64,000 nucleotides of DNA, from contig JBDSSF010000001.1 of NCBI GenBank assembly GCA_039928925.1, positions 186,001 to 250,000 of the forward strand, in the 5' to 3' direction. The translations under genes were made by a program, and so were the position numbers. The notes beneath the pieces are model-generated. The model was not told the DNA's origin. It saw only the letters and a list, made by a program, of their open reading frames with translations, and did no database searches. Shown here piece after piece: positions 8,182-41,332 of the stretch (position 1 is the first letter of the stretch; the number at the start of each line of letters is the position of its first letter). This DNA is from Candidatus Saccharimonadales bacterium. GTDB lineage: Bacteria; Patescibacteriota; Saccharimonadia; Saccharimonadales; Saccharimonadaceae.

Positions 8182-8439
8182 AGATAGTCCTTCTTTATGA
8201 AGTAACGGTGCATTATGCAGTCCGTTTATGTGCGCATACTAAGGCGTGTTTTTATATAGTGCCGAAGGTTGACGTTTTTACCTCTTATGCGCTCATAATA
8301 TCAATTTGTATAATTGCGGTCAAGTTCACGCAACCTTGAATATATTGTAAATTAAAAGTCTCCATACTTGACTATGCCTAGTTGGTGCATGTTAGTTAAT
8401 ATTTTAAGAAATGTATGGTATATATAATTTCAGATACTA

Positions 8440-8453
8440 TATAATTACCTTAA
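8440..8453 (+). promoter_or_regulatory. Probable -10 box of the carotenoid operon
   Basis: TATAAT at 8440-8445 ends 8 nt before the GTG of crtE. No convincing -35 hexamer stands 16-18 nt upstream. The geometry matches the other leaderless promoters in this window. Confidence 0.5.
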
Positions 8454-9521
8454 GTGAAAAAAATATCGATAGAGATGAGTCAAAATATCTTACTTGATCA
8501 GACTATTAATAGTTTTTTCGAAAGATCGATTGAATATGCGACACGCCTTGACCCTTCTTATCGCCAACTTTGGGAAGTTCTGTATGGTTTAATTCGTTCC
8601 GGTGGTAAAAGGCTTCGTCCAAAAATGACTCTAATGGCATATGATGCATTCGGAGGCACTGAAACAAACAAAATAGTTCCAATCGCGGCTGCACAGGAAC
8701 TTTTGCATTTTTCGCTACTGATTCACGATGATGTTATTGACCGTGATTATGTACGTTATGGCGTATCCAACATTGCTGGCCGCTATAAAATCGCATATTC
8801 ACAGTATATTACTTTAGCCGAAGATCAGACGCATTACGCACACAGCGCTGCAATATTAGCTGGAGATTTAATGTTGTCTGGTGCTCACCAATTGATTGCT
8901 TCTAGTGAGTTGAATGATCAACAGAAGATGGTAGCACAAAGGTATTTATCAACAAGTGTGTTTGAGGTTGCCTGCGGTGAGTTACTGGATACTGAACTTA
9001 GCTTTACTCCATATACCAGCGGAGACGCGCTTAAGGTCGCGAAATACAAAACAGCAAGTTACTCATTCGTATCTCCATTATTGACGGGCGCTTCTCTCGC
9101 GGGTATCGACCATCACAAGGCAGAAGCGCTGCGATCATTTGGTGAGTCACTCGGTATTGCTTATCAATTAGTAGATGATTTGCTTGGTGTATTTGGTAGC
9201 GAAAGTGAAATTGGAAAATCAACTTCAAGCGATATTATAGAGGGCAAGCGTACGTATATGGTCGAGTTTGCGCTCACATCACTCACAGAGAATGAAAAGT
9301 CTGTTTTCATGCATGCATTCGGCAATTCAAATGTAACCGCACTTGAAGTTGAGAACATTAGACAGTTACTCGAGAAATCTGGCGCAAGATCCGCTACTGA
9401 GCAAAAAATTGACGAATATGTGAAAAGTGCCTTAGACTCTCTTGCTCAACTTGAACTTGAGCAGCATCACTACGATAAATTCGCAAGCTTTGTAAATAAA
9501 GTTATTGAGAGGTCATCATAA
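8454..9521 (+). CDS. crtE: Polyprenyl diphosphate synthase (GGPP synthase, CrtE/IdsA type)
   Basis: 355 residues. First Asp-rich motif HDDVID at residues 91-96; second region YQLVDDLLGVFG near 241, where the last Asp of the classic motif is Gly, as in several actinobacterial GGPP synthases; GGKRLRP near residue 50. It elongates IPP/DMAPP-derived units to geranylgeranyl diphosphate for CrtB. The start is GTG at 8454; an ATG seven codons later (8475) is an alternative. First gene of a six-gene operon with overlapping junctions; the stop overlaps crtB by 1 nt. Where the cell gets IPP is not shown in this window. Confidence 0.88.
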   Translation: MKKISIEMSQNILLDQTINSFFERSIEYATRLDPSYRQLWEVLYGLIRSGGKRLRPKMTLMAYDAFGGTETNKIVPIAAAQELLHFSLLIHDDVIDRDYVRYGVSNIAGRYKIAYSQYITLAEDQTHYAHSAAILAGDLMLSGAHQLIASSELNDQQKMVAQRYLSTSVFEVACGELLDTELSFTPYTSGDALKVAKYKTASYSFVSPLLTGASLAGIDHHKAEALRSFGESLGIAYQLVDDLLGVFGSESEIGKSTSSDIIEGKRTYMVEFALTSLTENEKSVFMHAFGNSNVTALEVENIRQLLEKSGARSATEQKIDEYVKSALDSLAQLELEQHHYDKFASFVNKVIERSS

Positions 9522-10351
9522 TGGATTTGTACGACCAAGTCGCCTATGAAAATAGTCGCCATTTAACACTAAGATATTCAACATCATTCGGTATAAGTAG
9601 CCGTTTTTTTAGTAAATCTATAAAAGATCATATCTATGCAATCTATGCGCTTGTCCGTATTGCTGACGAAATCGTTGATACATATGCAGGTATTCATGGG
9701 CCAAAACTCTTGAATGAGCTTGAAGAGCGAATATATGAAACACTGCAGACTGGATATGACACCAATCTTGTTATTCACGCATTTTGCAAGACTGCAACAG
9801 TATATGGCATTGATAGAACCCTAATTAAACCTTTTTTTGACAGCATGCGTATGGATTTAACACCTCAGTTGTATAAAAGTGTGAATTACACTAAATATAT
9901 TCATGGATCTGCTGAAGTTATTGGGCTGATGTGTCTCAGGGTATTTTTAGATGGTAATAGCATTAGTTATAATGAACTTATGCCGGGAGCTACTGCACTT
10001 GGTTCAGCATATCAAAAAGTCAATTTTCTTCGTGACCTCTCTACTGACTATAAAGAACTTGGACGTATTTATTTTCCACAGGTGACTTATGATACCTTTA
10101 ATGAAAAGCAAAAGCAGATTATTATTCTTGATATTAAAAATGATTTTTCAAAAGCAATTTTAGCTATTAATAAACTGCCTAACTCAAGTAAAAGGGCAAC
10201 ATTAATCAGCTATGTATATTACTCTGAACTTCTTAAAAAACTTGAACGTACTTCTGCTGAAACGATCAAGCACAACAGAGTCCGTATTACTTCCATACGT
10301 AAATTGATACTAATGATTAAAACAGTATTGTTTGGAGTATTTAAAAAATGA
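9521..10351 (+). CDS. crtB: Phytoene synthase
   Basis: 276 residues, squalene/phytoene synthase fold. First substrate-binding motif ADEIVD at 48-53 and second motif RDLSTDYKELGR at 171-182, both with the Asp residues that bind Mg-diphosphate. It condenses two geranylgeranyl diphosphates to 15-cis-phytoene. Translationally coupled to crtE (TAATG) and to crtI (ATGA). Confidence 0.9.
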   Translation: MDLYDQVAYENSRHLTLRYSTSFGISSRFFSKSIKDHIYAIYALVRIADEIVDTYAGIHGPKLLNELEERIYETLQTGYDTNLVIHAFCKTATVYGIDRTLIKPFFDSMRMDLTPQLYKSVNYTKYIHGSAEVIGLMCLRVFLDGNSISYNELMPGATALGSAYQKVNFLRDLSTDYKELGRIYFPQVTYDTFNEKQKQIIILDIKNDFSKAILAINKLPNSSKRATLISYVYYSELLKKLERTSAETIKHNRVRITSIRKLILMIKTVLFGVFKK

Positions 10352-11877
10352 GTCAAAAAGTTATTATTATAGGCGCCGGTATTGGAGGTATTGCAACGGC
10401 TAATTTATTAGCAAAGGCAGGCTACGACGTAGCTATTTATGAAAAAAACTCTCAGCCTGGTGGCAGAGCTGGAAAAATGATTGTAGACGGTTTTACGTTT
10501 GACACCGGACCATCCTGGTATTTAATGCCAGAGGTTTTTGCGCATTATTTTTCACTATTTGAAAAGTCAATTGAAGAGGAATTAGACTTAGTACGGCTTT
10601 CTCCCGCATATAAAGTTTTTTTTGAAAACAATACACCGATCACTATTACAGGTGATAGTAAAACAGATACTGAAACGTTTGAAACAATTGAGGCTGGAGC
10701 TGGTGCTAAACTAAGCACCTATATTGATAAAAGTAATGACATTTATCAACTTTCGCTAAAACATTTTTTGTATACTAACTTTTCATCATATCGAGATTTT
10801 ATGAAACCAGATATTTTACAAAAAAGTCACGTGATGGCAGGACTTGCTATTACTCCAATCGATAAATATGTTAGTAGATTTGTGAGTGATCAACGACTTA
10901 GGCAGATATTAGAATACCCAATGGTTTTTTTGGGTTCGTCACCATTTTCAGCACCGGCTATCTATAGTCTTATGAGCGCACTTGATTTTCGCGAGGGAGT
11001 ATTTTATCCACGTGGCGGGCTATACACTATAATCGAGCATCTTGTTTCAATCGGTAAAAAGCTTGATGTTACATATCATTATGATTCACCAGTAAAACAG
11101 ATTAAAGTAAGTCATCAAGCAGCAGCTGGTGTTATTCTGAGCGATGGAACACATGTAGATGCAGACATTGTTATATCTAATGCTGATTTACACTTTACGG
11201 AAACACAGCTCCTTCAGCCAAAGTATCAGTCTTATCCAGCCCGATATTGGAATAAAAAAGAATCAGCACCGAGTGCTTTATTGATGTATCTTGGTTTGAA
11301 GGGTGAGCTATCTGAACTTGAACATCATAATTTGTTTTTTGTTGATGATTGGAAACAAAATTTTGAAGATATTTTTGGGAATAAAAAATTGCCTTATCCA
11401 GCTTCTCTATATATTTGTAAGCCAAGTGCAACCGATACATCGGTTGCACCAAAAGGTTATGAAAATGTATTTGTATTAGTGCCACTTCCTTCAGGAGTAT
11501 CTGTCGCAAAAAAAGATATGGATGGACTCGCTGATAAATACTTATCGCTGATTGAAAAAATTACTGGTGTCTCGGATTTACGCAGTCGTATAGTAGTTAA
11601 AAAATTATTTGGTCCAAATGATTTTGTTAATAAGTTTAATGCATGGCAGGGTACTGCGCTCGGTCCATCGCACATACTGCGTCAAAGTGCAATGTTCCGT
11701 ACACCAAATAAAAGTCGCAAGCTCAAAAACCTGTATTATGTAGGCGGCTCAACGGCACCTGGTATAGGCTTACCGATGTGCCTCATTGGTGCGGAGCTAA
11801 TTTATAAAAGACTGGCGGGTGATAAAATCGGTGGTCCAATCAAAAGTGTCATAAATTTTGTTGGAAAAGTTAAATGA
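10348..11877 (+). CDS. crtI: Phytoene desaturase
   Basis: 509 residues. The N-terminal dinucleotide fold has GAGIGG at residues 9-14 followed by YEKNSQPGGRAG; the C-terminal CrtI signature YYVGGSTAPGIGLPMCLIGA is intact. CrtI-type enzymes use FAD to desaturate phytoene to lycopene. Full family length, no frameshift. It overlaps crtB by 4 nt and crtYe by 4 nt. The number of desaturation steps cannot be read from sequence, but the following cyclase and elongase genes imply lycopene. Confidence 0.9.
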   Translation: MSQKVIIIGAGIGGIATANLLAKAGYDVAIYEKNSQPGGRAGKMIVDGFTFDTGPSWYLMPEVFAHYFSLFEKSIEEELDLVRLSPAYKVFFENNTPITITGDSKTDTETFETIEAGAGAKLSTYIDKSNDIYQLSLKHFLYTNFSSYRDFMKPDILQKSHVMAGLAITPIDKYVSRFVSDQRLRQILEYPMVFLGSSPFSAPAIYSLMSALDFREGVFYPRGGLYTIIEHLVSIGKKLDVTYHYDSPVKQIKVSHQAAAGVILSDGTHVDADIVISNADLHFTETQLLQPKYQSYPARYWNKKESAPSALLMYLGLKGELSELEHHNLFFVDDWKQNFEDIFGNKKLPYPASLYICKPSATDTSVAPKGYENVFVLVPLPSGVSVAKKDMDGLADKYLSLIEKITGVSDLRSRIVVKKLFGPNDFVNKFNAWQGTALGPSHILRQSAMFRTPNKSRKLKNLYYVGGSTAPGIGLPMCLIGAELIYKRLAGDKIGGPIKSVINFVGKVK

Positions 11878-12182
11878 TAGGATTTACTTATTTAACTTTT
11901 TTAGTGTTTGGAATAGTTGGCGTCAGCTTTATTGATCGCCGTTATAAATTAGCATATTGGTGCGATCGTGCGCAGACACTCAGAACATTAGCGATTTGCA
12001 TAGGTGTTTTTATTGTCTGGGATGTTCTAGGCATTGCACTTGGTATATTTTTTCATGGAAATAGTAATCTAAGCTTACCGGTCCGCTTGTTGCCGGAATT
12101 TCCAATTGAAGAGTTGTTTTTCTTAACGCTTCTTTGTTACAGTACATTAGTAATTTATCAGGGAATATCAAGAAAATGGTAA
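11874..12182 (+). CDS. crtYe: Heterodimeric lycopene cyclase subunit (CrtYc/CrtYe type)
   Basis: 102 residues with three hydrophobic helices and the lycopene-cyclase-domain motif FPIEELFFL near residue 76 (PxEE). Split cyclases of actinobacteria consist of two about 100-residue membrane proteins; this is the first half. Ring type (beta, gamma or epsilon) cannot be predicted. The symbol follows the C50-pathway gene order. Its stop overlaps the next start by 7 nt. Confidence 0.8.
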   Translation: MIGFTYLTFLVFGIVGVSFIDRRYKLAYWCDRAQTLRTLAICIGVFIVWDVLGIALGIFFHGNSNLSLPVRLLPEFPIEELFFLTLLCYSTLVIYQGISRKW

Positions 12183-12466
12183 CATACTTAGTTCTCAACA
12201 TAGTATTTATACTAGTCATTTGTATTTTGGCTCGAGTCAAAATACGCCGCCCATTTAAAGCAATAATATTCACGATGATTGCATTGCTGATTTTGACGGC
12301 TTTATTTGACAATTTAATCGTGGGCTTTTCAATTGTTAATTATGATAATAACAAGATACTTGGCATTCGGATCGGAGAAGCACCTATAGAAGACTTTGCT
12401 TATGCATTCCTAGCTGTCATACTCGTGCCATTCATATGGTTACGGCTTGGTAAAAAGAATGTTTAG
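12176..12466 (+). CDS. crtYf: Heterodimeric lycopene cyclase subunit (CrtYd/CrtYf type)
   Basis: 96 residues from ATG 12176, chosen because it lies in the overlap with crtYe. Three membrane helices; the motif FDNLIVG and then IGEAPIEDFAYA are characteristic of the second half of split lycopene cyclases. It probably forms the active cyclase with the preceding protein. In C50 pathways this pair cyclises the elongated C50 intermediate. Confidence 0.8.
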   Translation: MVTYLVLNIVFILVICILARVKIRRPFKAIIFTMIALLILTALFDNLIVGFSIVNYDNNKILGIRIGEAPIEDFAYAFLAVILVPFIWLRLGKKNV

Positions 12467-13313
12467 TAATATAAAGAAATTATTTTTTATCGCACGACCA
12501 GTTTCATGGCCGAATACAGCATACCCATTTGCGGCAGCCTACTTAGTCACAGGCGGTACAATTAGTCCAGTATTTTGGATCGCAACATTGTATTTCTTAA
12601 TACCATATAACTTACTTATGTACGGAGTGAATGATGTATTCGACTATGAATCAGATATTCTTAACCCACGTAAGGGTGGCATAGAGGGCGCCGTCGAGCA
12701 AAAAGCGTTCCATCCAATTATATTGTGGGCGACAATAATCACTAATGTACCTTTTATCATCTATCTGCTCTTCATCGGAGCGCTTTTGTCGAATGTCGTT
12801 ATTTTGCTACTCATATTCTTTGTACTTGCGTACTCTATTGCTGGTTTACGATTCAAAGAAATTCCCATTTTAGATTCTGTCACTAGTAGTATTCACTTTG
12901 TAGGTCCTATGATTTATGCCATGGTCTTAACTGGTTTTATGACAAATTATATCGCTTACGTAGTGGCATTCTTTTTATGGGGGATGGCTAGTCACGCGTT
13001 TGGAGCTGTACAGGATATTATCCCTGATCGCGCAGGTAAGCTTGCATCAATCGCAACTGTCTTCGGAGCCAAGGCAACCACGCTCATCGTGCTAGCTCTC
13101 TACATGTCTGCAAGCTTGATTATTATCATGCAACCTTGGCCATCCCCAATTATTGGATTAATAGGACTTATCTATGTGTTTAATATTTTACCTTACATCA
13201 ACATAACTGACAAAACATCAAACCGTGCGAATAAAGCTTGGCGTCGCTTTATCTGGTTAAATCTATTTTCAGGGTTTGTAATTACATTGTTTTTCATAGT
13301 AGAGTTCATTTAG
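12459..13313 (+). CDS. crtEb: Lycopene elongase (UbiA-family prenyltransferase, CrtEb type)
   Basis: 284 residues, about eight membrane helices. First prenyl-diphosphate motif NDVFDYESD at 58-66, directly followed by NPRKGGIEGA, which is the pattern of lycopene elongases rather than of ubiquinone or heme prenyltransferases; second Asp motif QDIIPDRAGK near residue 185. It would add two C5 units to lycopene, giving flavuxanthin-type C50 products. Start ATG 12459 overlaps crtYf by 8 nt. Last gene of the operon; no strong terminator was seen before the sigma gene. Confidence 0.82.
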   Translation: MFSNIKKLFFIARPVSWPNTAYPFAAAYLVTGGTISPVFWIATLYFLIPYNLLMYGVNDVFDYESDILNPRKGGIEGAVEQKAFHPIILWATIITNVPFIIYLLFIGALLSNVVILLLIFFVLAYSIAGLRFKEIPILDSVTSSIHFVGPMIYAMVLTGFMTNYIAYVVAFFLWGMASHAFGAVQDIIPDRAGKLASIATVFGAKATTLIVLALYMSASLIIIMQPWPSPIIGLIGLIYVFNILPYINITDKTSNRANKAWRRFIWLNLFSGFVITLFFIVEFI

Positions 13314-13577
13314 TCACTAGTAACTTTGATATATGAACATCTATTATGAGATTCATAATGGTGAGTCGATTATTCAAAGATCACGGCATAACAAGTAACG
13401 AGCGAGCGCACTTAGAACTTATGCAAGTTATATTCTTCGATAAGGAAGTATTAATGAGCAGGACACCTTCATGCGAGGTTTAAATATACCGCTTTTTGTA
13501 AAAAATAAACTTATATATCGGACAATAATGTATGATCATTGAGATATTTGAATGCGGAGTTACGTATAATGAGCATG

Positions 13578-14096
13578 ATGGAAGAAAAAGATTGCATAGC
13601 TCAAATACTATTAGGTGATACCGAACGATATCGTGAACTTGTAGAGCGATACCAAACAGGTCTCATTATTCATTGTGAGAATATTCTCAAAGATCGCCAA
13701 GACGGCGAAGATATAGCTCAAGAAGCATTTATTAAAGCGTATAAGAAATTGTATGGATTTGAAGCAAATAAAGCGAGCTTTTCTACATGGCTGTACCGCA
13801 TAGCTACAAACCTATGCATCGACTCGCTCCGAAAGAACAAACGAAAAGTACACGTTAAAGACATAGAGTTTCACCTTGAAGCTATGCTTCCAAAGCATAT
13901 TGAGCAAGAAGAAATTGATCACATACGTAAAATTGTTACAGAACTCGAACCACCAAAATATGCGGAAATTGTCAAAGCTTACTTCTGGGAAGGCAAAAGC
14001 TATCGAGAACTTGCAGAGTCATACGATACGAACACCAGTACAATTAGTACGTGGATGAGCCGTGCAAAATTGCAGTTGAAGGAGAAGCTTGTATGA
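13578..14096 (+). CDS. ECF-type RNA polymerase sigma factor (copy 1)
   Basis: 172 residues. Region 2 (RYRELVERYQTGLI through DGEDIAQEAFIKAY and FSTWLYRIATNLCID) and region 4 (YAEIVKAYFWEGKSYRELAE with a helix-turn-helix) are complete; region 3 is absent, as in ECF sigmas. The start is set at ATG 13578 by alignment with the paralogue at 15588; ATG 13569 is an alternative. TATAAT at 13565-13570 lies 7 nt upstream. It overlaps its partner by 4 nt (ATGA). Confidence 0.85.
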   Translation: MEEKDCIAQILLGDTERYRELVERYQTGLIIHCENILKDRQDGEDIAQEAFIKAYKKLYGFEANKASFSTWLYRIATNLCIDSLRKNKRKVHVKDIEFHLEAMLPKHIEQEEIDHIRKIVTELEPPKYAEIVKAYFWEGKSYRELAESYDTNTSTISTWMSRAKLQLKEKLV

Positions 14097-15316
14097 AAGA
14101 TCTAAACTTCGATGCGCTTTTACTCGCTGCTAAGCCGGGTAGCTATTCAAGGAACCTTAAATTTACGGATACAGTAATGCAAAAAGTGCAGCATTATGAG
14201 ATATTATCGTCTGCCGTTCGTAAAATGGATGTCAATAAAAAGGAGACATTCATTATGAAGCTTAAACATTTACCTCGAATTGCTATTGTGGCAATTGCGA
14301 TAGGAGCCTTAGCGCTTTTAACGGGCACGACATATGCGGTTGTGCAAACAATTCAAGAACATGCCAATATCAAAATTGAAAATTCAAAAACGAACGAGTT
14401 TGGTCGCCAGCAACTTGATGTATCATTTCAAGGATGTAGCCTTCCCAACGACAAGAACACTACCTATGAGCTAAAAGAAGGTGGTGGTTTGAGTGCTGAA
14501 GATGGCGTTAAGGCATTGCAAGCGAGTTGCGACATGGTTCACGTAGGTGATTGGATGAAGAATAACGTATTATCACCTGATCAGCCGCCGGCGTTCCTCC
14601 TTGATCAAGTGGATACAGTAACTGCCATCAGCGATACTTCGATCACTCTCGCTAAATTTGGAGAGAAACCATTTCCTCAATCTTCAAAAGTTCTGCTTGT
14701 GGACTCAATTATCGAACGCAAGGATTTGAAAGTAGGTGATACAGTATTTTACTATCCAGACACACGCAGCCGTACTTACGCGGAGCACGGTTCAAAGGAA
14801 GTGGCAGTGTTCAAAGTCTCTCAGACTGCAAAATACTACGGATCGGATATTCAGTCGTATGTGAGCCCTAGAGGTCCTTGTCACCTTAATCCAGAGCGCA
14901 CATGTCTACAGAGTAATCATATTAATCAAACTACTTTGATTATCGCTTCTGGGGGAGGAAAGCCAAGTATTAATCAAACCGAGGTGCCGAAAGAAGTACA
15001 AGGTAAGCTTATTAGTTACGACGCTTCACAGTTCAAACTGGACGTCGGAAAAGGTGTTATATATACCTTCTCTACTACTTCAAACATTTTTGATTATTTC
15101 AATTGCGTGAAGGTCTACAACCTAGCATCTTTTGATGGCATCTATGCAAAGACAGACCCGGAAGCCCTCAAGATTATTGTTGGTGACAACATTGATTTAT
15201 TTTATCTTGAAGCAGAAGACACCGCTAGCCACGATATTGCCTGGTCGCAAATGACAGGAATAACTTTGCAGGTTGAGCGAATCCCAAATAATCTAGATGT
15301 ACTGAGGAAATATTAA
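14093..15316 (+). CDS. Probable membrane anti-sigma factor with extracellular sensor domain (copy 1)
   Basis: 407 residues. A cytoplasmic N-terminus of about 60 residues is followed by one membrane helix (AIVAIAIGALALLTGTTYAVV) and a large outside domain with paired cysteines and beta-rich repeats (TITLAKFG, KVGDTVFYYPD). Position and 4-nt overlap with the sigma gene suggest that the N-terminus holds the sigma factor, but no known anti-sigma domain was recognised. AAGGAG precedes the ATG. An internal ATG at 14255 has its own AGGAG site and would skip the cytoplasmic part. Confidence 0.65.
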   Translation: MKDLNFDALLLAAKPGSYSRNLKFTDTVMQKVQHYEILSSAVRKMDVNKKETFIMKLKHLPRIAIVAIAIGALALLTGTTYAVVQTIQEHANIKIENSKTNEFGRQQLDVSFQGCSLPNDKNTTYELKEGGGLSAEDGVKALQASCDMVHVGDWMKNNVLSPDQPPAFLLDQVDTVTAISDTSITLAKFGEKPFPQSSKVLLVDSIIERKDLKVGDTVFYYPDTRSRTYAEHGSKEVAVFKVSQTAKYYGSDIQSYVSPRGPCHLNPERTCLQSNHINQTTLIIASGGGKPSINQTEVPKEVQGKLISYDASQFKLDVGKGVIYTFSTTSNIFDYFNCVKVYNLASFDGIYAKTDPEALKIIVGDNIDLFYLEAEDTASHDIAWSQMTGITLQVERIPNNLDVLRKY

Positions 15317-15402
15317 ATATACAGATTAGAATACCCATTTAGGGACGTAAACACGAAATAACAATTAGATAGCATGCATATCTCTGGGATCAAACTAATA
15401 AA

Positions 15403-15428
15403 AATAGAATCGCGAAAGCGATTCTATT
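15403..15428. terminator. Intrinsic terminator after sigma module 1
   Basis: An 11-bp stem AATAGAATCGC with a GAAA tetraloop, flanked by A-run and T-run. Almost the same hairpin recurs at 17364-17389 after module 2. Confidence 0.85.
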
Positions 15429-15436
15429 TAAGGTCT

Positions 15437-15493
15437 ATGCAAAAGCACGATTAGGGACATGGGTCGCATTTTGTGATATTACATCTGGCTGAG
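15437..15493. repeat. Boundary repeat, class B, copy 1 (decayed)
   Basis: Begins ATGCAAAAGCACGATTAGGG and ends ACATCTGGCTGAG. It matches the left two thirds of the repeat at 17398-17477; the TGGCTGGGG core is interrupted here. It lies between the two sigma modules, directly after the terminator, as the copy at 17398 does. Confidence 0.6.
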
Positions 15494-15549
15494 AATACAA
15501 ATTATAAATTTGCCTGCAATATTATAGCCATTATTTGCGTATAAGGAAA

Positions 15550-15578
15550 GGAACACACGAAAGAGAGTTGCGTATACT
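15550..15578 (+). promoter_or_regulatory. Candidate ECF-type autoregulated promoter
   Basis: GGAAC at 15550-15554, a 16-nt spacer, and CGTATACT at 15571-15578. GGAAC with CGT-type -10 is the general form of ECF promoters. The -10 part (GAGTT-CGTATA-T) is shared with copy 1 upstream of 13578, but the GGAAC is not. Confidence 0.45.
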
Positions 15579-15587
15579 ATGAACATA

Positions 15588-16106
15588 GTGAAAGAAAAAT
15601 TAATTATTACAAGAGTGCTCGAAGGCGAAACTGATTCATATCGGGAGCTTGTTGAGCGCTACCAAACCGGCCTAATTATTCATTGCGAAAATATACTCAA
15701 CGATAGGCAGGATGGTGAGGACATGGCGCAAGAAGCATTCATCAAGGCATTTAAAAGTTTGAAAACATTTTCGAGTGAAAAAGCGCGATTTTCTACATGG
15801 CTCTACAGAATTGCTAGCAATCTTTGTGTCGACTTTTTACGAAAAAATAAGAAAGTTTTTAACGTAGAAGATATTGAGCGATACACCCAAGCAATCGACC
15901 CGGCTTATATTGAGATGGATGAAATCGAGAAAGTTCGTATGCTTGTCGAACAACTTGAGCCTCCTAAATACGCCGAGGTTATTAAAGCTTATTTCTGGGA
16001 AGGTAAAAGCTACCAGGAGATAGCAGCCATTTTCAATACAACGACAAACACAATCGGCTCTTGGATTAATCGAGCAAAATCACAGCTCAGGAAGGAACTA
16101 TCATGA
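15588..16106 (+). CDS. ECF-type RNA polymerase sigma factor (copy 2)
   Basis: 172 residues from GTG 15588, chosen because TATACT (15573-15578) would overlap the upstream ATG at 15579 and because it aligns with copy 1. Same domain layout: region 2 (ELVERYQTGLIIHCENIL, FSTWLYRIASNLCVDFL) and region 4 (YFWEGKSYQEIAAIF). About two thirds identical to copy 1 by eye. Overlaps its membrane partner by 4 nt. Likely regulates its own operon and unknown target genes. Confidence 0.85.
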   Translation: MKEKLIITRVLEGETDSYRELVERYQTGLIIHCENILNDRQDGEDMAQEAFIKAFKSLKTFSSEKARFSTWLYRIASNLCVDFLRKNKKVFNVEDIERYTQAIDPAYIEMDEIEKVRMLVEQLEPPKYAEVIKAYFWEGKSYQEIAAIFNTTTNTIGSWINRAKSQLRKELS

Positions 16107-17338
16107 AAGATATGCGACTTAGCGGCATGCTTATAGCGGCAAAATCGAAAAAATATGAATTAAACCACATTTTTACAGATAAGGTCATGGATTCACTCCA
16201 CCCATCTGCAATATTTACAAAGCAAATACGTAGTATGAATGTCAATAAAAAGGAGACATTCGTAATGAAATTAAAACACTTACCAAGAATGACGGCTATA
16301 TTACTCGCTTTCGGAGCATTGTTCTTGCTGACCGGTACAACGTACGCTGTTGTTAAAACCGTTGAAAGCCTCGCGCAAGTCAAAGTGAACCAAACAGGTA
16401 CAAATACTTTCGGTCGAGAAGAGTTAAATGTTAATTTAGAGAACTGTGGAGGAAAGACTACCGACGGAACGAAGTATGAACTTACTAAAGGAAGCGGGCT
16501 CAGTAATGATGATGCAGCCAGAACTCTCCAAGCAAGATGCGATGTTGATGCCATTAACAACTGGATACTCGCTCATCCTCAATGGTCTTCATCACTGCCA
16601 TTTTTAGCTTACAGCAGTAAAGCAGATACTATCAGTTCTATAAATAGTGACTCTATTACACTAAAGGAGGGTGGTGTCAAAAAACTCACGAACGACATGG
16701 TGGTGGTATATGATAATAATGAAGTATCAAAAGATACGCTCAAAGTAGGTGATTCGGTTATTGTTTTCCCCGATGCTTCGAGTCAATTAATGACCAAAAC
16801 TCCTCTCCCTTTGAGTATCTTCGTCGTGTCTCAACCAACTAAATATTACAGTCACGACTACCAATCCTATGTAAACGAACGTGGACACTGCCCTAACAAT
16901 CCTACTCGTGAATGTTTACTTAACGGCAGTAGGGATTACACGGCACTAATGGTTGCACATGGTGGAGCTTATTACGGCCACGTAATCCAGAAGCCAGGAA
17001 ATACCAAGAACGTTCAAGGTAAAGTCCTCTCATACGATGCCAACGAAATAAAACTCGACGTAGGAGGTGGCGTTGTGTATACAGTCCATACCCAGTCAAA
17101 TGTGATCGATACTTATAACACAATCACTGTTTATACGCTTAAATCATTGGACGATATATATGCCTACACTAAGCCTGAAGATATAAAGATCTATAAGGGT
17201 GATAGCCTTGATATAGCCTACGATGAAGATCCTAGCCAGTCCTCAAGCAATATTCTATATTCAAATCTACTTGGCATACAGCTGGTAGTGGAGCATGTGC
17301 CAAACAATACAAATACAGTTCAGTTGAGAAAATATTAG
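16103..17338 (+). CDS. Probable membrane anti-sigma factor with extracellular sensor domain (copy 2)
   Basis: 411 residues, paralogue of 14093-15316 with the same plan: cytoplasmic N-terminus, one helix (AILLAFGALFLLTGTTYAVV), and an outer domain with conserved Cys pairs (ENCGGKT, QARCDVD, RGHCPNNPTRECL). The best conserved stretch spans the membrane entry (VNKKETFVMKLKHLPRM), including an internal AGGAG and ATG (16265). The outer domain differs more than the inner part, suggesting the two modules sense different things. Confidence 0.65.
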   Translation: MKDMRLSGMLIAAKSKKYELNHIFTDKVMDSLHPSAIFTKQIRSMNVNKKETFVMKLKHLPRMTAILLAFGALFLLTGTTYAVVKTVESLAQVKVNQTGTNTFGREELNVNLENCGGKTTDGTKYELTKGSGLSNDDAARTLQARCDVDAINNWILAHPQWSSSLPFLAYSSKADTISSINSDSITLKEGGVKKLTNDMVVVYDNNEVSKDTLKVGDSVIVFPDASSQLMTKTPLPLSIFVVSQPTKYYSHDYQSYVNERGHCPNNPTRECLLNGSRDYTALMVAHGGAYYGHVIQKPGNTKNVQGKVLSYDANEIKLDVGGGVVYTVHTQSNVIDTYNTITVYTLKSLDDIYAYTKPEDIKIYKGDSLDIAYDEDPSQSSSNILYSNLLGIQLVVEHVPNNTNTVQLRKY

Positions 17339-18714: not shown

Positions 18715-18976
18715 TATTATTGTCAAATATACGTAAACAAATTTTTAAATAAGTTTACTACTGATATATTATCACATTATGAAGATTTTGCAACTTCGTG
18801 TACAACACTGAACACATAGAAGTACATATACTATTATTGATGATAACTTCAATCATTATAATCGATATTAGAGAAAACTAATGACTTCCCGAAGAAAGTC
18901 GCACATGTGTTTGCTGATCAAATTGCAGTTATTTCTCAATGATTTTTGTAATCGTAAGTTTTTTGTTTATTATAAT

Positions 18977-19302
18977 ATTATCACTAAAGAAATGTATGAG
19001 AACAAGCTCAATGACCTACGATCTACACAACTTGATATTGAGAGAAGAATTGCCAATCTTGGTACAGCATCAAAAGAGTTCTATGAAAATACTCAGAGTG
19101 TTATGGAGATCGCTCGTGATGCACCATTAACGCTTCTCAGTTCGAAGATTGATAAAAGACGAGCACTCATGACTTTGGTACTTTTGAACTTAACTATATA
19201 CGATGAACAACTGAGGTGGGAATATAAAAAGCCATTCAGTTTAATGGCTTTTTATACAGATAATGACTCGTGGCTGGGGAAACGGGATTCGAACGACTAC
19301 TG
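18977..19302 (+). pseudogene. Relic of a large serine recombinase (C-terminal coiled coil and tail)
   Basis: About 108 codons align with the last part of the recombinase at 26899: KEMYENKLNDLRSTQLDIE, EFYENTQSVM, LRWEYKKPFSLMAFY and then SWLGKRDSN against SWLGWRDSN. The N-terminal catalytic domain and zinc ribbon are missing. As in the intact gene, the reading frame runs into a tRNA 3' end on the opposite strand, showing an older insertion of a related element. Confidence 0.75.
19268..19300 (-). repeat. Displaced tRNA-Gln 3' end (old attachment site)
   Basis: The minus strand reads GTTCGAATCCCGT, TTCCCCA, G, CCA, which is the exact 3' T-arm, acceptor, discriminator G and CCA layout of tRNA-Gln. 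The 5' half of the T-stem does not pair, so only the 3' portion is left. It closes the recombinase relic. Confidence 0.7.
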
Positions 19303-19373
19303 TAAACTACCTCCTGATCTAAAGGTTCGTCGTATGGTAGCTTGGGTGAGAACTGTTTGCAAGTTCAATATCG

Positions 19374-20468
19374 TTATTCAGTAATTTCATTATTCCAAGC
19401 AATATTCTTCACTACCTGCGACAGCCGATATCCATTCGTGTGTAAACAAATCCCTAAGTACGAGCTGAGATTATTTTCACTAATTCGTAGAAGCACCCGC
19501 CGTTTCGTCTTCGTCCGGAGAGTAATCGCATATGGTCGCAAGACATGTCCCAAGAAATCAATTCCCTGATGCCATGAACGAATAGACACTTTATCTGGAT
19601 GCAACCCTAGCATTAAATTATCTCTCAGGAATATTCCGATCGGTTCGATAAGCGATTCTAAATACGCTTTGTCTGTTGAAACGATGACAAAATCATCACA
19701 GTACCTAAGGTAGTGTTTGATACCGAGGGTTTGTTTCATAAACCAGTCGAGTTCGTGCAGATAAATGTTAGCGAATAGCTGGCTTGTGACATTGCCAAGT
19801 GGAATGCCTTTTCCGTTCTCATGTCCGTGACTGAGAATAATCGTCCGTAGTAATTCTATGGTTTGTTTGTCATCAACCCTTAACTCAATAAGACGCATAA
19901 GAATTTCGTGATCGATCGAGGCGAAGAATTGTCGTACATCACACTTAAGCGCATATACCTTCTGAGTATTATTACGGCTTGCCTGACGAAGGAACAACCC
20001 CAGTCGTGCCACACCAGCATGCGTACCTTTACCGACTCGACATGAATAGCTGTCGTGAATAAATCGTTTTTCAAATAATGGCTCAGTCGCCGAAACAATC
20101 GCTTGATGAACAAGCCTGTCCCTTACCTTTGCTTTGTGGATCTTTCGAGTTTTTGGGTCGCAAATCGTGAATGGTTGGTAACTTCCGTGTATGTAACTAT
20201 GCGTTTCGAGGTCTCTGCTCAAAATGTGGATGCTTTCAGTAATGTGCTTTTGATACTCGCCAACATCAAAACGTGATTTCTTGCCTGTAGAAAACTTTTT
20301 CCATGCTTGCCACAGTGCTTTTTCTGAACTGATTGTAGTAAAATCGAAAGAATGAACAGACTTTCTGCTAATCCGACCCCCCCCGACAGCTTTGACCACA
20401 AGATCAAGGTCCAGCTCAAGTTGCCTGGGCAGTTTCAAAACATTCCCGTCATTGTCAGTTTGTATCAA
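19374..20468 (-). CDS. Reverse transcriptase, diversity-generating-retroelement type
   Basis: About 364 residues. RT motifs in order: PKTRKIHKAKVRDRLVHQA, YSCRVGKGTHAG, LKCDVRQFFASIDHEIL, GIPLGNVTSQLFANIYL, LRYCDDFVIV, GLHPDKVSI and DFLGHVL. The LGNVTSQ form, with SQ in place of the QG of retron and group II RTs, is typical of DGR RTs. Start uncertain: TTG 20468 has AAAGGAG upstream; GTG 20486 and GTG 20399 are alternatives. The N-terminal part overlaps the divergent Avd-like gene and crosses an eight-base G run. Confidence 0.82.
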   Translation of the reverse strand: MIQTDNDGNVLKLPRQLELDLDLVVKAVGGGRISRKSVHSFDFTTISSEKALWQAWKKFSTGKKSRFDVGEYQKHITESIHILSRDLETHSYIHGSYQPFTICDPKTRKIHKAKVRDRLVHQAIVSATEPLFEKRFIHDSYSCRVGKGTHAGVARLGLFLRQASRNNTQKVYALKCDVRQFFASIDHEILMRLIELRVDDKQTIELLRTIILSHGHENGKGIPLGNVTSQLFANIYLHELDWFMKQTLGIKHYLRYCDDFVIVSTDKAYLESLIEPIGIFLRDNLMLGLHPDKVSIRSWHQGIDFLGHVLRPYAITLRTKTKRRVLLRISENNLSSYLGICLHTNGYRLSQVVKNIAWNNEITE

Positions 20469-20783
20469 CTTTACAGCTCCTTTCACGACGAATTAATAAA
20501 TTTTCCTAAGTCAGAACGCTATAATCTAGGCGCAACTTGCCAAAACGAAATACTAGAGATTATGAAGCAATGTTTACGAGCAGCAGGCTCAAGCAAGATT
20601 GAATACAAAGCTACAAATCTAAAAAATGCCTCAGCAAATCTCGACACCCTAAGACTGCTCTTGAGTCTCTGCAAAGATTGCAGATGTATCTCCAACCAAT
20701 CCTACCAGCAGCTCGATTCCAAGTTATCTGGAATCGGTCGCATGCTGGGAGGCTGGTTAAGATCTATTTCGAGTAGTCCCTAA
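20352..20783 (+). CDS. Avd-like four-helix-bundle DGR accessory protein
   Basis: 143 residues. The core from about residue 29 matches Avd/S23-type helical bundles: NIPVIVSLYQLYSSFHDE, FPKSERYNLG, ANLDTLRLLLSLCKD and a C-terminal IGRMLGGWLRS. In DGRs a pentameric Avd binds the RT and template RNA. Unusually it is divergent from the RT, with overlapping 5' ends, and its 3' end overlaps the GC-rich gene by 20 nt on the other strand. The first 25 residues include the C8 tract and may not be translated. Confidence 0.75.
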   Translation: MNRLSANPTPPDSFDHKIKVQLKLPGQFQNIPVIVSLYQLYSSFHDELINFPKSERYNLGATCQNEILEIMKQCLRAAGSSKIEYKATNLKNASANLDTLRLLLSLCKDCRCISNQSYQQLDSKLSGIGRMLGGWLRSISSSP

Positions 20784-21525
20784 CGACAGGCGAAGACCAG
20801 TTGTCATTGGCATTGTCAGCGTCGTTGGCGTTCAGGTTCACCCCGAGGTCGAGGACCCACCGGTTGACGTACGGAACGTTCGACCAGTCGGAACCGTACT
20901 TCGCCTGAAGGCCAGAGAGTTTCGGATAGGGCGAGCCCTTTCCGTCCCAGCTCATGGCCCAGTCAGGGTCAAGGACGAGCTTCTCGAGCACCTCGATGCT
21001 CGCGAGTCGCACCTTGTCCTTCTTGGCCAGCGAGAGCGCATCCTTGGGGGATTTGCCCTGATAGCCGTTCGGATCGAAGTGGACGAGACGCAGGACACCA
21101 GTCGGCTTCATACCAGCCGCGTACTTGAGCGGCGTTTCCGCCGTCGGATAGCGATACTTGGTGTATCCAGCGGGAGGCACGAATGCATCCCACAGGCGAC
21201 CGAAGCAGCTCGAAAGCGTGTAGCCGAAGCCACCGCTGACGAGAGGTGTGTCCGTGTCGGTGAAGGGCTTGAAGACATCCGCCTGCTGGAGGATGCGCTC
21301 GCGCGTTTCCTCGTCGATGACGACGCCGAGTTCTTCCCAGCGGGCAAGCTGACGCTCGACCCACTGCACGATGGAATCGGTGGTCTTCTTTGTGGGATAA
21401 ATCCCGTCGAGAATGCCCTGAGTTGCGTCGAGGACATCTTCGACAGTGAGACTACCCGCCTTGAGACGCCGCGAGATTTCATTCTGGCGAGCCTGAAGGC
21501 TGAACAGCTGATCGGTGGTGGTCAC
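20764..21525 (-). CDS. GC-rich gene; possible DGR target protein with Asn/Asp-rich tail
   Basis: 253 residues from GTG 21525, chosen because AAAGGG lies 7 nt upstream; in-frame starts at 21561 and 21567 exist. The N-terminus is helical (TDQLFSLQARQNEISRRL), and the C-terminus reads NVPYVNRWVLDLGVNLN then ANDADNANDNWSSPVV. The last part looks like the end of an FGE/C-type-lectin fold used by DGR targets. Codons across NANDADNANDN all end in C or T and could arise from AAY by adenine changes. Much more GC-rich than its surroundings. No template repeat was found. Confidence 0.6.
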   Translation of the reverse strand: MTTTDQLFSLQARQNEISRRLKAGSLTVEDVLDATQGILDGIYPTKKTTDSIVQWVERQLARWEELGVVIDEETRERILQQADVFKPFTDTDTPLVSGGFGYTLSSCFGRLWDAFVPPAGYTKYRYPTAETPLKYAAGMKPTGVLRLVHFDPNGYQGKSPKDALSLAKKDKVRLASIEVLEKLVLDPDWAMSWDGKGSPYPKLSGLQAKYGSDWSNVPYVNRWVLDLGVNLNANDADNANDNWSSPVVRDYSK

Positions 21526-21586
21526 GAGAGACCCTTTCTTTGGATTGCCGTAGAGGCTCATCGACACACATAATGTGCATCAACGA

Positions 21587-21648
21587 TCTCAACTTATCAT
21601 TGAGAACGGCGTGGTATATTCAGTGCTGATATCAATACACAACGCCGT
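21587..21648. repeat. Two adjacent hairpins upstream of the GC-rich gene
   Basis: TCTCAA/TTGAGA (21587-21605) followed at once by a 15-bp imperfect inverted repeat, ACGGCGTGGTATATT at 21606-21620 and AATACACAACGCCGT at 21634-21648 (13 of 15 pair). They lie in the 5' region of the gene ending at 20764 and may be regulatory or structural RNA. Confidence 0.6.
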
Positions 21649-21740
21649 CCTCAGGGGAATGCTAGATTATTAAGGTTCGGGTACATTATAGCATAAATGA
21701 GTGTATTTTGCAATATACACAAGCGTTTTGCAAATAAAAA

Positions 21741-21777
21741 GCTCCGCCAAAGGAAGTACCTGGGATTCGAACCAACT
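21741..21777 (-). repeat. tRNA 3'-end-like remnant
   Basis: The minus strand contains GTTGGTTCGAATCCCAGG, a T-arm-like sequence, followed by degraded acceptor-like bases. No full tRNA can be folded. With the tRNA-Gln end at 19268 it brackets the RT/Avd/GC-rich gene block. Confidence 0.45.
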
Positions 21778-21810
21778 TATCTCTGTTAGTTATTTTTAAC
21801 TCAAAATTAA

Positions 21811-21832
21811 ACAAGCACCCGAAAGTGCTTGT
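21811..21832. terminator. Intrinsic terminator
   Basis: 8-bp stem ACAAGCAC/GTGCTTGT with loop CCGAAA and trailing TTTTG. It precedes a class B repeat, in the same position as the hairpins at 15403 and 17364. Confidence 0.75.
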
Positions 21833-21863
21833 TTTTGTTCATCAGAGACCTTTCCAACAGATT

Positions 21864-21926
21864 GAAGGATGTGGGTCTCATTTTGTTGTGTCGCATCTGG
21901 CTGGGGCTAATGGATATGTTTAGAAC
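21864..21926. repeat. Boundary repeat, class B, copy 3
   Basis: GAAGGATGTGGGTCTCATTT, then GTGTCGCATCTGGCTGGGG, then CTAATGGATATGTTTAGAAC. Same order of elements as 17398-17477. It ends 2 nt before the Nudix stop codon. Confidence 0.7.
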
Positions 21927-21928
21927 TT

Positions 21929-22339
21929 TTAATTTATGTAGCCAAGTTTTTCAAATAGAATTCGAGACGGGGGAACAATATCATAGGATGAAAGATCTTC
22001 AGGCTTAACCCACTCAATCTTTTCTATTCCTTCAGCGACTTGAATATCTCCGCTTACGTACTCACATTCGACATCGAGATAGATGAAAAACTTTTTGATG
22101 CCATCGAGATCGTGTTTAACTTCCGTATCCCAAGATATTTTGTTCTTTACGGTTACTGTTACGCCGGCTTTAGTGCGTACTTCGGCGATGATTGCATCAT
22201 CGGGGTCAACGTTTGACGTGGCCTCAGCACCAAATATGTACCACGTTTCTTTATAAGGAGGTGAGCCATCTGGTTTTTTACGCATTAAAATTGCACCATC
22301 TTTTTTCACGACACCAACGATAAGGACTTTTGTTTGCAT
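21929..22339 (-). CDS. Nudix-fold protein with degenerate catalytic box
   Basis: 136 residues from ATG 22339, with TATAAT (minus strand, 22347-22352) 7 nt upstream. Nudix fold is clear: VLIVGVVKKDGAILMRKK, ETWYIFGAEA and FIYLDVECEYVSGD, EKIEWVKPEDL. The catalytic box GX5EX7REUXEEXGU is replaced by GAEATSNVDPDDAIIAEVRTKAG, which lacks the metal-binding EE pair. It may bind nucleotides without hydrolysis. One-gene cassette between class B and class A repeats. Confidence 0.7.
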   Translation of the reverse strand: MQTKVLIVGVVKKDGAILMRKKPDGSPPYKETWYIFGAEATSNVDPDDAIIAEVRTKAGVTVTVKNKISWDTEVKHDLDGIKKFFIYLDVECEYVSGDIQVAEGIEKIEWVKPEDLSSYDIVPPSRILFEKLGYIN

Positions 22340-22361
22340 AAAAGCTATTATAACAGACAAA

Positions 22362-22424
22362 AAATGACGATTTCTCGTCATTTAAGCATAATCATCTTGG
22401 CTGGGGCTAGTGGATATGTTGAGA
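22362..22424. repeat. Hairpin plus boundary repeat, class A, copy 2
   Basis: A 9-bp hairpin AAATGACGA/TCGTCATTT (22362-22383) runs into TTTAAGCATAATCATCTTGG, CTGGGGCTAGTGGATATG and TTGAGAAA. On the minus strand the hairpin is followed by TTTTTTG, so CCCCAGCCA, a conserved 16-nt flank and a terminator follow each other as they would after a tRNA gene. Confidence 0.7.
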
Positions 22425-22511
22425 AATTTTTAGTATCTAACTCCTATGCCTTGTATTTTACTGAGCTTATTATGTTACTATGATTACTATAAACATACCT
22501 AGGAGAAGTAA

Positions 22512-23039
22512 ATGACAGATGTACCCGTAGATGTTAAGCCAGTGAAGGTAAAGGCATCTGATCATGACACCTATGGAGTAGCTACAATTATCTCGCTCCT
22601 TCTTCCAATTGTCGGAATTATCATGGGAGTAGTATATCTGACAAAGGACAAGGCAGAAGATAAAAAGCTAGGCGAGCATCTAATCGCAATCAGTATACTT
22701 GCTAGCATTGTTATTAGTTTCATTTGGTTCTCTTTTGTATCATCTAGAACACCATCTGTTATACCGATTAGTACTTTAGATTCACCTTCTGTTAACTTGA
22801 CACCGACTAGTCCCCCTTGGGATATTGAAGCTGCGTATGTAAAGATTAGCAAAGGAATGACACGAGCGGCAGTGGAAGCAGTGATCAAAAAACCTGCAGC
22901 AAATTGTGCAAGAAGTGAACAATCCGGATCAGCAGATCAGTACGCTTCATGCTCATACGGGGGAGCAGGGGATCATGGTATAATCGTGATAAATTACGTT
23001 AACGACATTGTAACATCTACAGAAAAATCCACTTATTAG
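22512..23039 (+). CDS. Membrane protein with DUF4190-like helices and a small outer domain
   Basis: 175 residues. Two membrane helices (VATIISLLLPIVGIIMGVVY and the IAISILASIVISFIWF segment) precede a Thr/Ser/Pro linker and a C-terminal domain of about 70 residues with two Cys (ANCARS, ASCSYG) and a SmpA/BamE-like start (YVKISKGMTRAAVEAVI). AGGAG precedes the ATG. Function unknown. Cargo of the accessory island. Confidence 0.6.
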   Translation: MTDVPVDVKPVKVKASDHDTYGVATIISLLLPIVGIIMGVVYLTKDKAEDKKLGEHLIAISILASIVISFIWFSFVSSRTPSVIPISTLDSPSVNLTPTSPPWDIEAAYVKISKGMTRAAVEAVIKKPAANCARSEQSGSADQYASCSYGGAGDHGIIVINYVNDIVTSTEKSTY

Positions 23040-23282
23040 CCTACACTAGTGATTAATCATCATGTACTTAATTGACTCTGAATTCCTCTGAAATTTGTAA
23101 ACTCAAGAAAAATGTGGATACCTAATATATAACTTCAGAAGTATAAGTTTACTAGAAGTGACTAGAGAATAAAAATACAATAACATAATCCATATTTCGG
23201 ATGCTTATAGAACTAGTTACTATTAGAAAGCACTGTTGAATGTTTTTTTGCTCCAGTTAAGCTATGTTCTAGAAAAAAATTA

Positions 23283-23789
23283 CTAGCTAAATTTAGAATT
23301 TGCGCTTACGAGTGCTTGAATAATCTCTTCATTCGACACATTTTTATTTGCGAATCGCACTAAAGGTAAGTGAGCCTGTTTAAATATTCTTTCAACTTCA
23401 GTATCACGCTCAATACGGTCTTTACTTTCGTGTGTATAATCATCTAGTTCTATGGCATACATTGGCTGGAGTGTAGTCTTATCGCAAAGCACGTAATCAA
23501 CTGACTTACCGTTAATGTGTTTGAATGCATAGCTCCAATCCTGACCTTTAACTCGGTGTTCAAGGATTGCCGATAGGTGCACTTGAGGGAAGACATAATA
23601 TCGCTCGCTCACAGCATCCTCTATTTTTGTAAAAAACTCCGACTCAGCCCTCGACATTAATAAGTTTTTAGCTGTGTATGTATAAGTATCTTTTTTACGA
23701 ATCTTTCGCTCAACTTGAGAATTTCGTCGTACTAGATTAACAAATGCAGCAGCAACGATAAGAAATCCAGCTAAGAATAATACTTCCAT
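23283..23789 (-). CDS. DUF2726 protein with N-terminal membrane anchor
   Basis: 168 residues. One N-terminal helix (FLAGFLIVAAAFVNLV) and a DUF2726 domain: LLMSRAESEFFTKIEDAV, VDYVLCDKTTLQPMYAIELD and LPLVRFANK. The D-x(n)-ELD arrangement recalls restriction-endonuclease-like folds, which the family resembles; no substrate is known. TATGAT (minus strand, 23796-23801) is 6 nt before the ATG. About 240 bp of AT-rich DNA before its 3' end hold no feature I can name. Confidence 0.7.
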   Translation of the reverse strand: MEVLFLAGFLIVAAAFVNLVRRNSQVERKIRKKDTYTYTAKNLLMSRAESEFFTKIEDAVSERYYVFPQVHLSAILEHRVKGQDWSYAFKHINGKSVDYVLCDKTTLQPMYAIELDDYTHESKDRIERDTEVERIFKQAHLPLVRFANKNVSNEEIIQALVSANSKFS

Positions 23790-23825
23790 GATTTCATCAT
23801 AACAAAAATTCTCTCGAAGGAGTAG

Positions 23826-23865
23826 TTAAGCATAATCATCTTGGCTGGGGCAAGTCAATATGCTC
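23826..23865. repeat. Boundary repeat, class A, copy 3
   Basis: TTAAGCATAATCATCTTGG then CTGGGGCAAGTCAATATG. The left half is identical to the copies at 18017 and 22381; the right half has drifted. Confidence 0.65.
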
Positions 23866-23990
23866 AAAGCTGGCAAACAAATTTTGATCTGCATGCTGGC
23901 ATCTGTACTATATAAGACATATAGATAGCCGTATTAACTAATACTAACGAAATTACGAATAAAATTTTACATTTGACATATAATGTGGAC

Positions 23991-25343
23991 ATGAATATAT
24001 CATCGTCAGCTATAATCAGATACCTAAATGAATTGGGAATTAATGATACTGTTTCCGCAAAGAACGTTTTATCTGTTGCACCAAGAGAAAGACTTTTCGA
24101 AATCTCCAATGATTTAGCCGAACTTACTAAAAGATACAAATCTAATACTGGTATCGGTGATAAAAATATATTTAATTTCACAGCAAGTGGTTCAATATCG
24201 GGCAGTGGTCAAAGTTGTTCAGGCATAAGTTGTAGAATTAGCGAAGCGCGAGAATTAGGTCAATTCGCAGCACTATATGGAGATCGAATAACAATACCAA
24301 ATTTCTTAGAGACTCATGGCAACATAGGCAAATCAGAATCAATGAAAGTAGATTTAGATCACTTCATAAATGTATTGCATGGAGACATAGCTGTATTGAT
24401 GGTATATGGAGATTTATTAGAAACCGGTTTAATTAAATTCAGTGCAAATCAGGTAATGCACTGCACGAGATGCATGCAAAGAATGGTGGTAGGTAACGAA
24501 CAGAAAACCATTATTAAAAGATATGATGAGCTGAATAAGATGACACTTAGCATGGTTCGTAAAAATGTTGTGTTTGAGCACAGTTTGAACAACAGAATCG
24601 ATATCTACGACCCAAATGGATATACTGATTCGGATGGACATTCACTTACGCTTATTGATCAACCATTAATGAAAAACCTACCTCTCGGAATTATTAAAGA
24701 ATCCGATGTCATAGACCTAAAATTAGCGGAGTATGTTTCCAACGGAATAGTGGATGATGTATTACAGCAAAATGTAGGACAAATGCAAAGCCGATCGACG
24801 TATCTTACGCCTAGATTAGTGGATGCATTTTTAATTGATACGCTCAATAACAAAAGTCTATCATTCGAAAACAACTCTGATTTAATGAAAAATATTACAC
24901 ATAACCTGCCACTTGCTAACGGAAATGATTTTATTGCTCTGGTAAACGTAAGGAGTTCCCAAATCGAGTATTTTGAAAGATATAAACACTCGCTCTCCTT
25001 GGTTTTGAAACAACTAGGCACTAATCCTAAATCTGAAGATGTAAAAGAAGCACTGGATCAGGAAGTGTTGCCGCATCTACTTAAACTTGATCAGATACTT
25101 AAGGCACATTCTGAAACAAGTATGAGTGATTTAAAAGCTATGGGGAAAATAACAGCAGTAACAGTAACCCTAGGGATAGCTGCCACTACAACATACCATC
25201 TAGATCCTAGTGCAGTAATTGGACTAGGTGCAATTGCTTCTCCTTCAGCACTTAGCGGCATAAAACATATTCTAAGGAGAAAGGAACAGCCAACCGAAGT
25301 TAAAGAAAATCAATATTATTTTTTATGGAATCAGAAACATTAA
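23991..25343 (+). CDS. Unknown 450-aa protein in the accessory island
   Basis: 450 residues from ATG 23991; TATAAT at 23979-23984 lies 6 nt before it. No family recognised. Early Cys-containing segment (GQSCSGISCRISEARELG), a middle CTRCMQ pair, long helical stretches, and one short hydrophobic stretch near the end (GKITAVTVTLGIAATTTYHL). Not membrane-rich overall. Its place among recombinase-linked cargo suggests an accessory or defence role, but this is only context. Confidence 0.6.
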   Translation: MNISSSAIIRYLNELGINDTVSAKNVLSVAPRERLFEISNDLAELTKRYKSNTGIGDKNIFNFTASGSISGSGQSCSGISCRISEARELGQFAALYGDRITIPNFLETHGNIGKSESMKVDLDHFINVLHGDIAVLMVYGDLLETGLIKFSANQVMHCTRCMQRMVVGNEQKTIIKRYDELNKMTLSMVRKNVVFEHSLNNRIDIYDPNGYTDSDGHSLTLIDQPLMKNLPLGIIKESDVIDLKLAEYVSNGIVDDVLQQNVGQMQSRSTYLTPRLVDAFLIDTLNNKSLSFENNSDLMKNITHNLPLANGNDFIALVNVRSSQIEYFERYKHSLSLVLKQLGTNPKSEDVKEALDQEVLPHLLKLDQILKAHSETSMSDLKAMGKITAVTVTLGIAATTTYHLDPSAVIGLGAIASPSALSGIKHILRRKEQPTEVKENQYYFLWNQKH

Positions 25344-25630
25344 TTACTTATTATTCATTGCTAACACCAAGTAATTAGTAATAGTCAGCATGACATTCGC
25401 ATCCTTACTATCTTCACACTTCTCAAATTTGGCGTCATAATCTTTATGCTTGCAACAATAAGACATAATCTTATAATTAGTCATAGCTACGTAATCAAAT
25501 ACGAGTGTGGTCATAGAAAACGGTCCAAAAACAGGGTTTAATCCAGTAACTTCCGAATAAGTTATGCAAAGGATACACTCCCGGGGTCTACCGCGTAAAG
25601 AAACTAGCTTAATCTTTACCTGTAGTTTGC

Positions 25631-25690
25631 TATAATCACACACCTTTTTAGATGAACTACAAGGTATTGATGAAAAATCAATACTATTTT
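25631..25690 (+). promoter_or_regulatory. Promoter-like TATAAT and attenuator hairpin before the rep region
   Basis: TATAAT at 25631-25636, then an 8-bp hairpin GTATTGAT/ATCAATAC (25664-25684) followed by TATTTTT, then a GGAG ribosome site and ATG at 25708. It may end most transcripts early and limit rep expression. The 364 bp between 25343 and 25708 hold no other feature I trust. Confidence 0.45.
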
Positions 25691-25707
25691 TAATTGGAGA
25701 AATCTAT

Positions 25708-26665: not shown

Positions 26666-26754
26666 GTATGAGCCGTGAGGAGCTAGATGCTTTTAGAGAG
26701 TATGTAGAAATACTTGCGGCTATTATTGGTGATAAAAAAGACGAAGATGTATAA
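26662..26754 (+). CDS. 30-aa ORF translationally coupled to rep
   Basis: Starts in an ATGA overlap with rep and encodes 30 residues: an amphipathic helix (REELDAFREYVEILAAII) and an acidic tail (GDKKDEDV). Too short to place. Coupling argues that it is translated; it could be a partner of Rep or of the recombinase. Confidence 0.45.
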   Translation: MSMSREELDAFREYVEILAAIIGDKKDEDV

Positions 26755-26760
26755 TAAAAA

Positions 26761-26880: not shown

Positions 26881-26898
26881 TTTAGTTGGGAGAATTCA

Positions 26899-37369: not shown

Positions 37370-37410
37370 AGTACCATTTATGCTTATACCAGTGTATGAT
37401 GGAGGGAGAT

Positions 37411-40942: not shown

Positions 40943-40943
40943 T

Positions 40944-41327: not shown

Positions 41328-41332
41328 TTTAT

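Follow-up and report, generated by a model that had tools for sequence, protein, structure and literature searches.

In C. glutamicum, the C50 carotenoid decaprenoxanthin is encoded by the operon crtE-cg0722-crtBIYeYfEb, and the steps of the pathway were proven by deletion (PMC3598387). Operons with the order crtE-B-I-Ye-Yf-Eb and with overlapping genes are present in many Micrococcales (Arthrobacter, Herbiconiux and Naasia among them). Another C50 system, that of bacterioruberin, has already been reported in CPR bacteria: its genes lyeJ, crtD and cruF were found in Lake Baikal Patescibacteria, including one Saccharibacterial genome, and they also occur in haloarchaea and some Actinobacteria (PMC9948471).

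The stretch of DNA analysed here (64,000 nucleotides, hereafter the window) comes from a genome whose GTDB family includes named Candidatus Saccharibacteria, namely UBA2112 (G371), GW2011_GWC2_48_9 (G373) and UBA6175 (G279). The CPR context assumed in the original prediction, which had been made from the letters of the window, is thus supported. The crt operon of the window resembles that of C. glutamicum in gene order and enzyme families. It differs, however, in the absence of the membrane protein cg0722 between crtE and crtB. C. glutamicum, moreover, makes its own IPP, whereas searches of the window's genome revealed neither an MEP nor a mevalonate route. The operon shares its gene order and overlapping genes with the Micrococcales operons, and its CrtEb is approximately 49-55% identical to the Micrococcales homologues among the matches listed. 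The bacterioruberin system likewise yields a C50 carotenoid from lycopene and two C5 units, but the operon in the window has a heterodimeric cyclase, and its elongase is of the type matched by NF009608 rather than by the haloarchaeal NF009516. No cruF was found among the six crt genes or their scanned neighbours. None of the papers listed by full-text searches of the open-access literature reported a decaprenoxanthin-type operon in Saccharibacteria, and its presence in this lineage appears unreported.

The six overlapping genes, crtE-crtB-crtI-crtYe-crtYf-crtEb, occupy positions 8454-13313 on the plus strand. The order, strand and place had been predicted correctly, as confirmed by open reading frames, protein families and motifs, but the predicted start at 8440 was about 14 bases too early. 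crtE (8454..9521, 355 aa, starting at GTG 8454 or alternatively at ATG 8475) encodes a trans-prenyl (GGPP) synthase (PF00348, 6.4e-47; motifs DDVID and DDLLG). It is followed by crtB for phytoene synthase (9521..10351, 276 aa; PF00494, 2.8e-35; motifs DEIVD and DLSTD) and crtI for phytoene desaturase (10348..11877, 509 aa), which was assigned by TIGR02734 (532 bits against a cut-off of 238, 1.3e-159) and by its tree. The small subunit of a heterodimeric C50 carotenoid cyclase, CrtYe (11874..12182, 102 aa; motif PIEEL), and the second subunit, CrtYf (12176..12466; PF18916, 47 bits; motif PIEDF), are two separate proteins, each matching TIGR03462 (49 bits, 5e-13, and 59 bits, 5e-16, respectively) above its cut-off of 39.4 bits. 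The last gene, crtEb (12459..13313), encodes a lycopene elongase of the UbiA superfamily. Successive genes overlap by 1, 4, 4, 7 and 8 bases, the last two overlaps being those of the crtYf ATG (12176) with the crtYe stop and of the crtEb ATG (12459) with the crtYf stop. Such short overlaps would fit a translationally coupled operon. The catalytic motifs are intact and common to Actinobacteria, and chance open reading frames were ruled out by the family scores and motifs. The promoter scan found no plus-strand promoter-like site upstream of crtE, and the terminator scan found no terminator downstream of crtEb; it gave one terminator-like hairpin, at 8230-8249.

The last gene had been predicted to be a lycopene elongase, not a generic UbiA protein. 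CrtEb carries the motif NDVFDYESDxxNPRKGG and scores 395 bits against NF009608 (cut-off 217), which is also the best model for the operon-borne actinobacterial elongases. CrtEb groups with these elongases in the tree as well, and the prediction is therefore upheld. Families, motifs and gene order likewise match a C50-type operon, as was originally claimed, with the carotenoid as its predicted product.

We infer the enzyme activities, the exact product, the precursor uptake and the physiological role as follows. CrtE would make GGPP, two molecules of which would be coupled by CrtB to phytoene, and CrtI would desaturate phytoene to lycopene. CrtEb would then add one C5 unit to each end of lycopene, giving a flavuxanthin-like compound, and CrtYe/CrtYf would close the end rings, with epsilon, gamma and beta rings being indistinguishable from the sequence here. 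Host or neighbouring cells would probably supply the C5 units, in the form of IPP and DMAPP or of short allylic diphosphates. It is likely, in our judgement, that the locus is a complete operon maintained by selection, that its product is a cyclic C50 carotenoid of the decaprenoxanthin or sarcinaxanthin kind, and that it is fed by such scavenged units.

It is worth considering whether the product is a cyclic C50 carotenoid at all. CarR-domain cyclases accept C40 substrates too, and the CarR-type pair might cyclise lycopene to a C40 carotene; alternatively, an inactive elongase might result in lycopene or in a mixture of C45 and C50 compounds. The specificity of elongases and cyclases indeed varies between organisms (PMC6393565). 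CrtEb, however, is conserved in the operon with its motifs intact, groups with the operon-borne elongases, and is encoded by a gene under purifying selection in the single measurable pair (see below). Taken jointly, these two outcomes seem improbable to us. Still less credible is a role in providing beta-carotene as a source of retinal for a rhodopsin, a possibility that the original prediction had raised. Type-1 rhodopsins and retinal scavenging are known in some freshwater Saccharibacteria (PMC9296517), but PF01036 matched nothing in the window's genome and nothing above cut-off in 198 family genomes; as no control genome matched either, this falls short of proving absence. Since the operon, ending in a C5 elongase, also goes past C40 lycopene to C50, retinal supply is unlikely, and we regard it as a very faint prospect.

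The cyclic C50 pigment would most likely reside in the membrane of a respiring cell as an antioxidant, photoprotectant or fluidity modifier. The window contains a cytochrome bo3-like operon at 37396-42202 (by translation, with a CyoE family match), so an antioxidant or membrane role would seem plausible. With the heme O synthase and an NDH-2-like pyridine-nucleotide oxidoreductase, the bo3-like oxidase operon extends over 37396-43723.

Cyclase-domain (TIGR03462) matches were found in 20 of 287 genomes of the phylum and in 31 of 198 sampled genomes of the family (30 above cut-off), the latter in 16 of 61 genera. The operon or its cyclase genes, present in about 30 of the 198, are thus not confined to the window's genome. 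Among 30 family loci fetched around cyclase domains, 24 have the complete set of six with the order unchanged. Five family loci (L031, L085, L093, L094 and L100) extend to some 150 bases or less from the end of a contig, and absence of a gene there therefore proves nothing. One of them (L094) has a stop inside the crtYf match, and L076, a second locus of G406, has the cyclase pair only. The crt genes are differently arranged in G067, a genome of the same order outside the family. L115, recorded as Chloroflexi bacterium PMG_070 but assigned by GTDB to the family of the window's genome, has an internal stop in its second cyclase gene. Further Patescibacteria have crtI and crtB adjoining CarR-type cyclase domains (L040, L043 and L045 in G028, G136 and G005; L036 and L037 in G156 and G019), and no CrtEb was found in the fetched stretches of these five loci. 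In the last two of these genomes, G156 and G019, GHMP kinases and IDI1 are present as well. Carriage by phages was considered and rejected, CrtEb having no match in the phage collection.

The window's genome comprises 984,634 bases in 5 contigs and is 98.6% complete; being a draft, it could lack a gene. Contamination was rejected on two grounds: the operon is part of a contig of 388 kb, and it recurs in independent assemblies, including the single-contig genomes G335, G377 and G389. Recurrence of the gene order in most family loci and in Micrococcales likewise argues against chance or a binning error.

The original prediction had invoked transfer from an actinobacterial host, and trees of the Crt proteins against actinobacterial homologues bear on this. 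In the CrtI tree, the family forms one clade (100/98), which takes in one unlabelled genome (L116) and is sister to the sampled Actinobacteria (100/99). The CrtEb tree divides in the same way, with the family clade less well supported (93/82), and a CrtB tree made by a quick method agrees with CrtI in setting the family clade against Actinobacteria. In a CrtE tree, also by the quick method, the family is interrupted only by one long-branched relative. The actinobacterial sample consisted of Micrococcales and some Propionibacteriales, without Corynebacteriales. Unlike in gene order, the Micrococcales operons stand apart in the CrtI, CrtEb and CrtB trees. If the whole operon had been a recent horizontal gift from an actinobacterial host, the identical gene order, the position of the closest non-CPR relatives in Micrococcales among the matches listed, and the patchy distribution, with four further genomes of the window's genus (67-93% complete) lacking a cyclase-domain match, would all be explained. 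The family clade, however, is sister to the sampled Actinobacteria and not nested among them, which contradicts recent transfer from these groups; CrtEb identity to Actinobacteria is only about 49-55%; and operon GC tracks that of each genome (0.376-0.614), being 0.376 in the window. We therefore consider such a recent gift very unlikely, and in this respect the original prediction did not hold. An old transfer between Saccharibacteria and Actinobacteria, in either direction, is possible from these trees.

The surroundings of the operon were compared as well. Homologues of the window's operon neighbours are scarce beside the other family operons, and an all-against-all comparison of flanks gave only small recurrent families. 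Since the flanks mostly differ between loci, the operon sits in many different genomic contexts. In the window, its GC is lower than that of all the remaining sequence, and in G253, G449 and G350 operon GC is above that of the flanks; overall it follows the local genome. Between G449 and G332, the one close pair used (most other pairs being saturated at synonymous sites), dN/dS is 0.036/0.471 (about 0.076) for crtI and 0.044/0.692 (about 0.064) for crtEb; both genes are under purifying selection between these two genomes. The differing flanks, the GC that tracks the genomes and the low dN/dS of this one pair suggest that the operon is selected and long resident.

Downstream of the operon, at 13539-17338, two genes for ECF sigma factors lie in tandem, and behind each of them is a gene for a protein of about 410-420 aa; this is apparently a duplicated pair. 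These proteins are anti-sigma-like by position, and the first has no Pfam match. A part for the ECF sigma factors in the system was not supported, as no homologue of them was found in the loci fetched around other copies of the operon. Farther on, 18881-28434 is a probable mobile region, with a rolling-circle replication protein (25871-26665), a serine recombinase (26899-28434) that overlaps a tRNA-Gln gene, and a 167-aa reading frame (18881-19384) resembling, by eye, the C-terminal part of this recombinase. A reverse transcriptase on the minus strand (19374-20486; PF00078; best PADLOC RT model 169 bits) adjoins an unknown 267-aa gene. A diversity-generating retroelement was rejected here, as no template/variable repeat was found.

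The supply of C5 units was analysed in a set of genomes including that of the window. IspH was found in none of 32 genomes, with controls matching. The GHMP kinase family includes IspE of the MEP route and the mevalonate-pathway kinases, and both routes to IPP need one. No GHMP kinase matched in the window's genome, again with matching controls. Matches occurred in 4 of 29 genomes: G156 and G019 outside the family, and G373 and G449 within it, where the neighbouring genes are, by inspection, unlike those of a mevalonate pathway. The kinases were not found in 19 of the 21 other family carriers searched. Of the two IPP isomerases, IDI2 had no match in any family genome searched; IDI1 was above cut-off within the family only in G334; its other matches were weaker, and the window's genome had none (controls matched for both). 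These results agree with the original view that CPR cells have little isoprenoid synthesis, and absence of C5 synthesis from most freshwater CPR classes has been reported in a survey (PMC9166423). Since IspH, GHMP kinases and both isomerases were not detected, the C5 units are probably scavenged. The pathway would then probably run on prenyl diphosphates taken from another cell. Isoprenoid scavenging without an upstream pathway has a precedent in Rickettsia parkeri (PMC6854040).

UppS matches were present in every family genome searched, so these cells require prenyl diphosphates in any case. The other family carriers searched have a single PF00348 gene, almost always the crtE of the operon; in G123, whose operon is truncated by the end of a contig, this gene is on a different contig. 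The window's genome has a second PF00348 gene, on contig C3 (L202, 7272-9102), convergent with an adjoining diverged UppS-like cis-prenyl transferase gene (104.5 bits against the TIGR00055 cut-off of 109.55) and near dnaG-, rpoD- and polA-like genes.

A fuller account would be that a host-dependent CPR bacterium builds a C50 membrane pigment wholly from the isoprene diphosphates of another cell, ten C5 units per molecule. Its operon would have diverged from that of Actinobacteria in the distant past and then have been both retained and relocated within one Saccharibacterial family; we give this account about an even chance of being right. A reduced, probably host-dependent bacterium would thus keep a long and costly pathway, the starting material of which it apparently does not make itself. 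If this is true, the pigment would serve to trace the passage of isoprenoids from a host into its epibiont. The operon also points to some importance of C50 carotenoids for part of one Saccharibacterial family.
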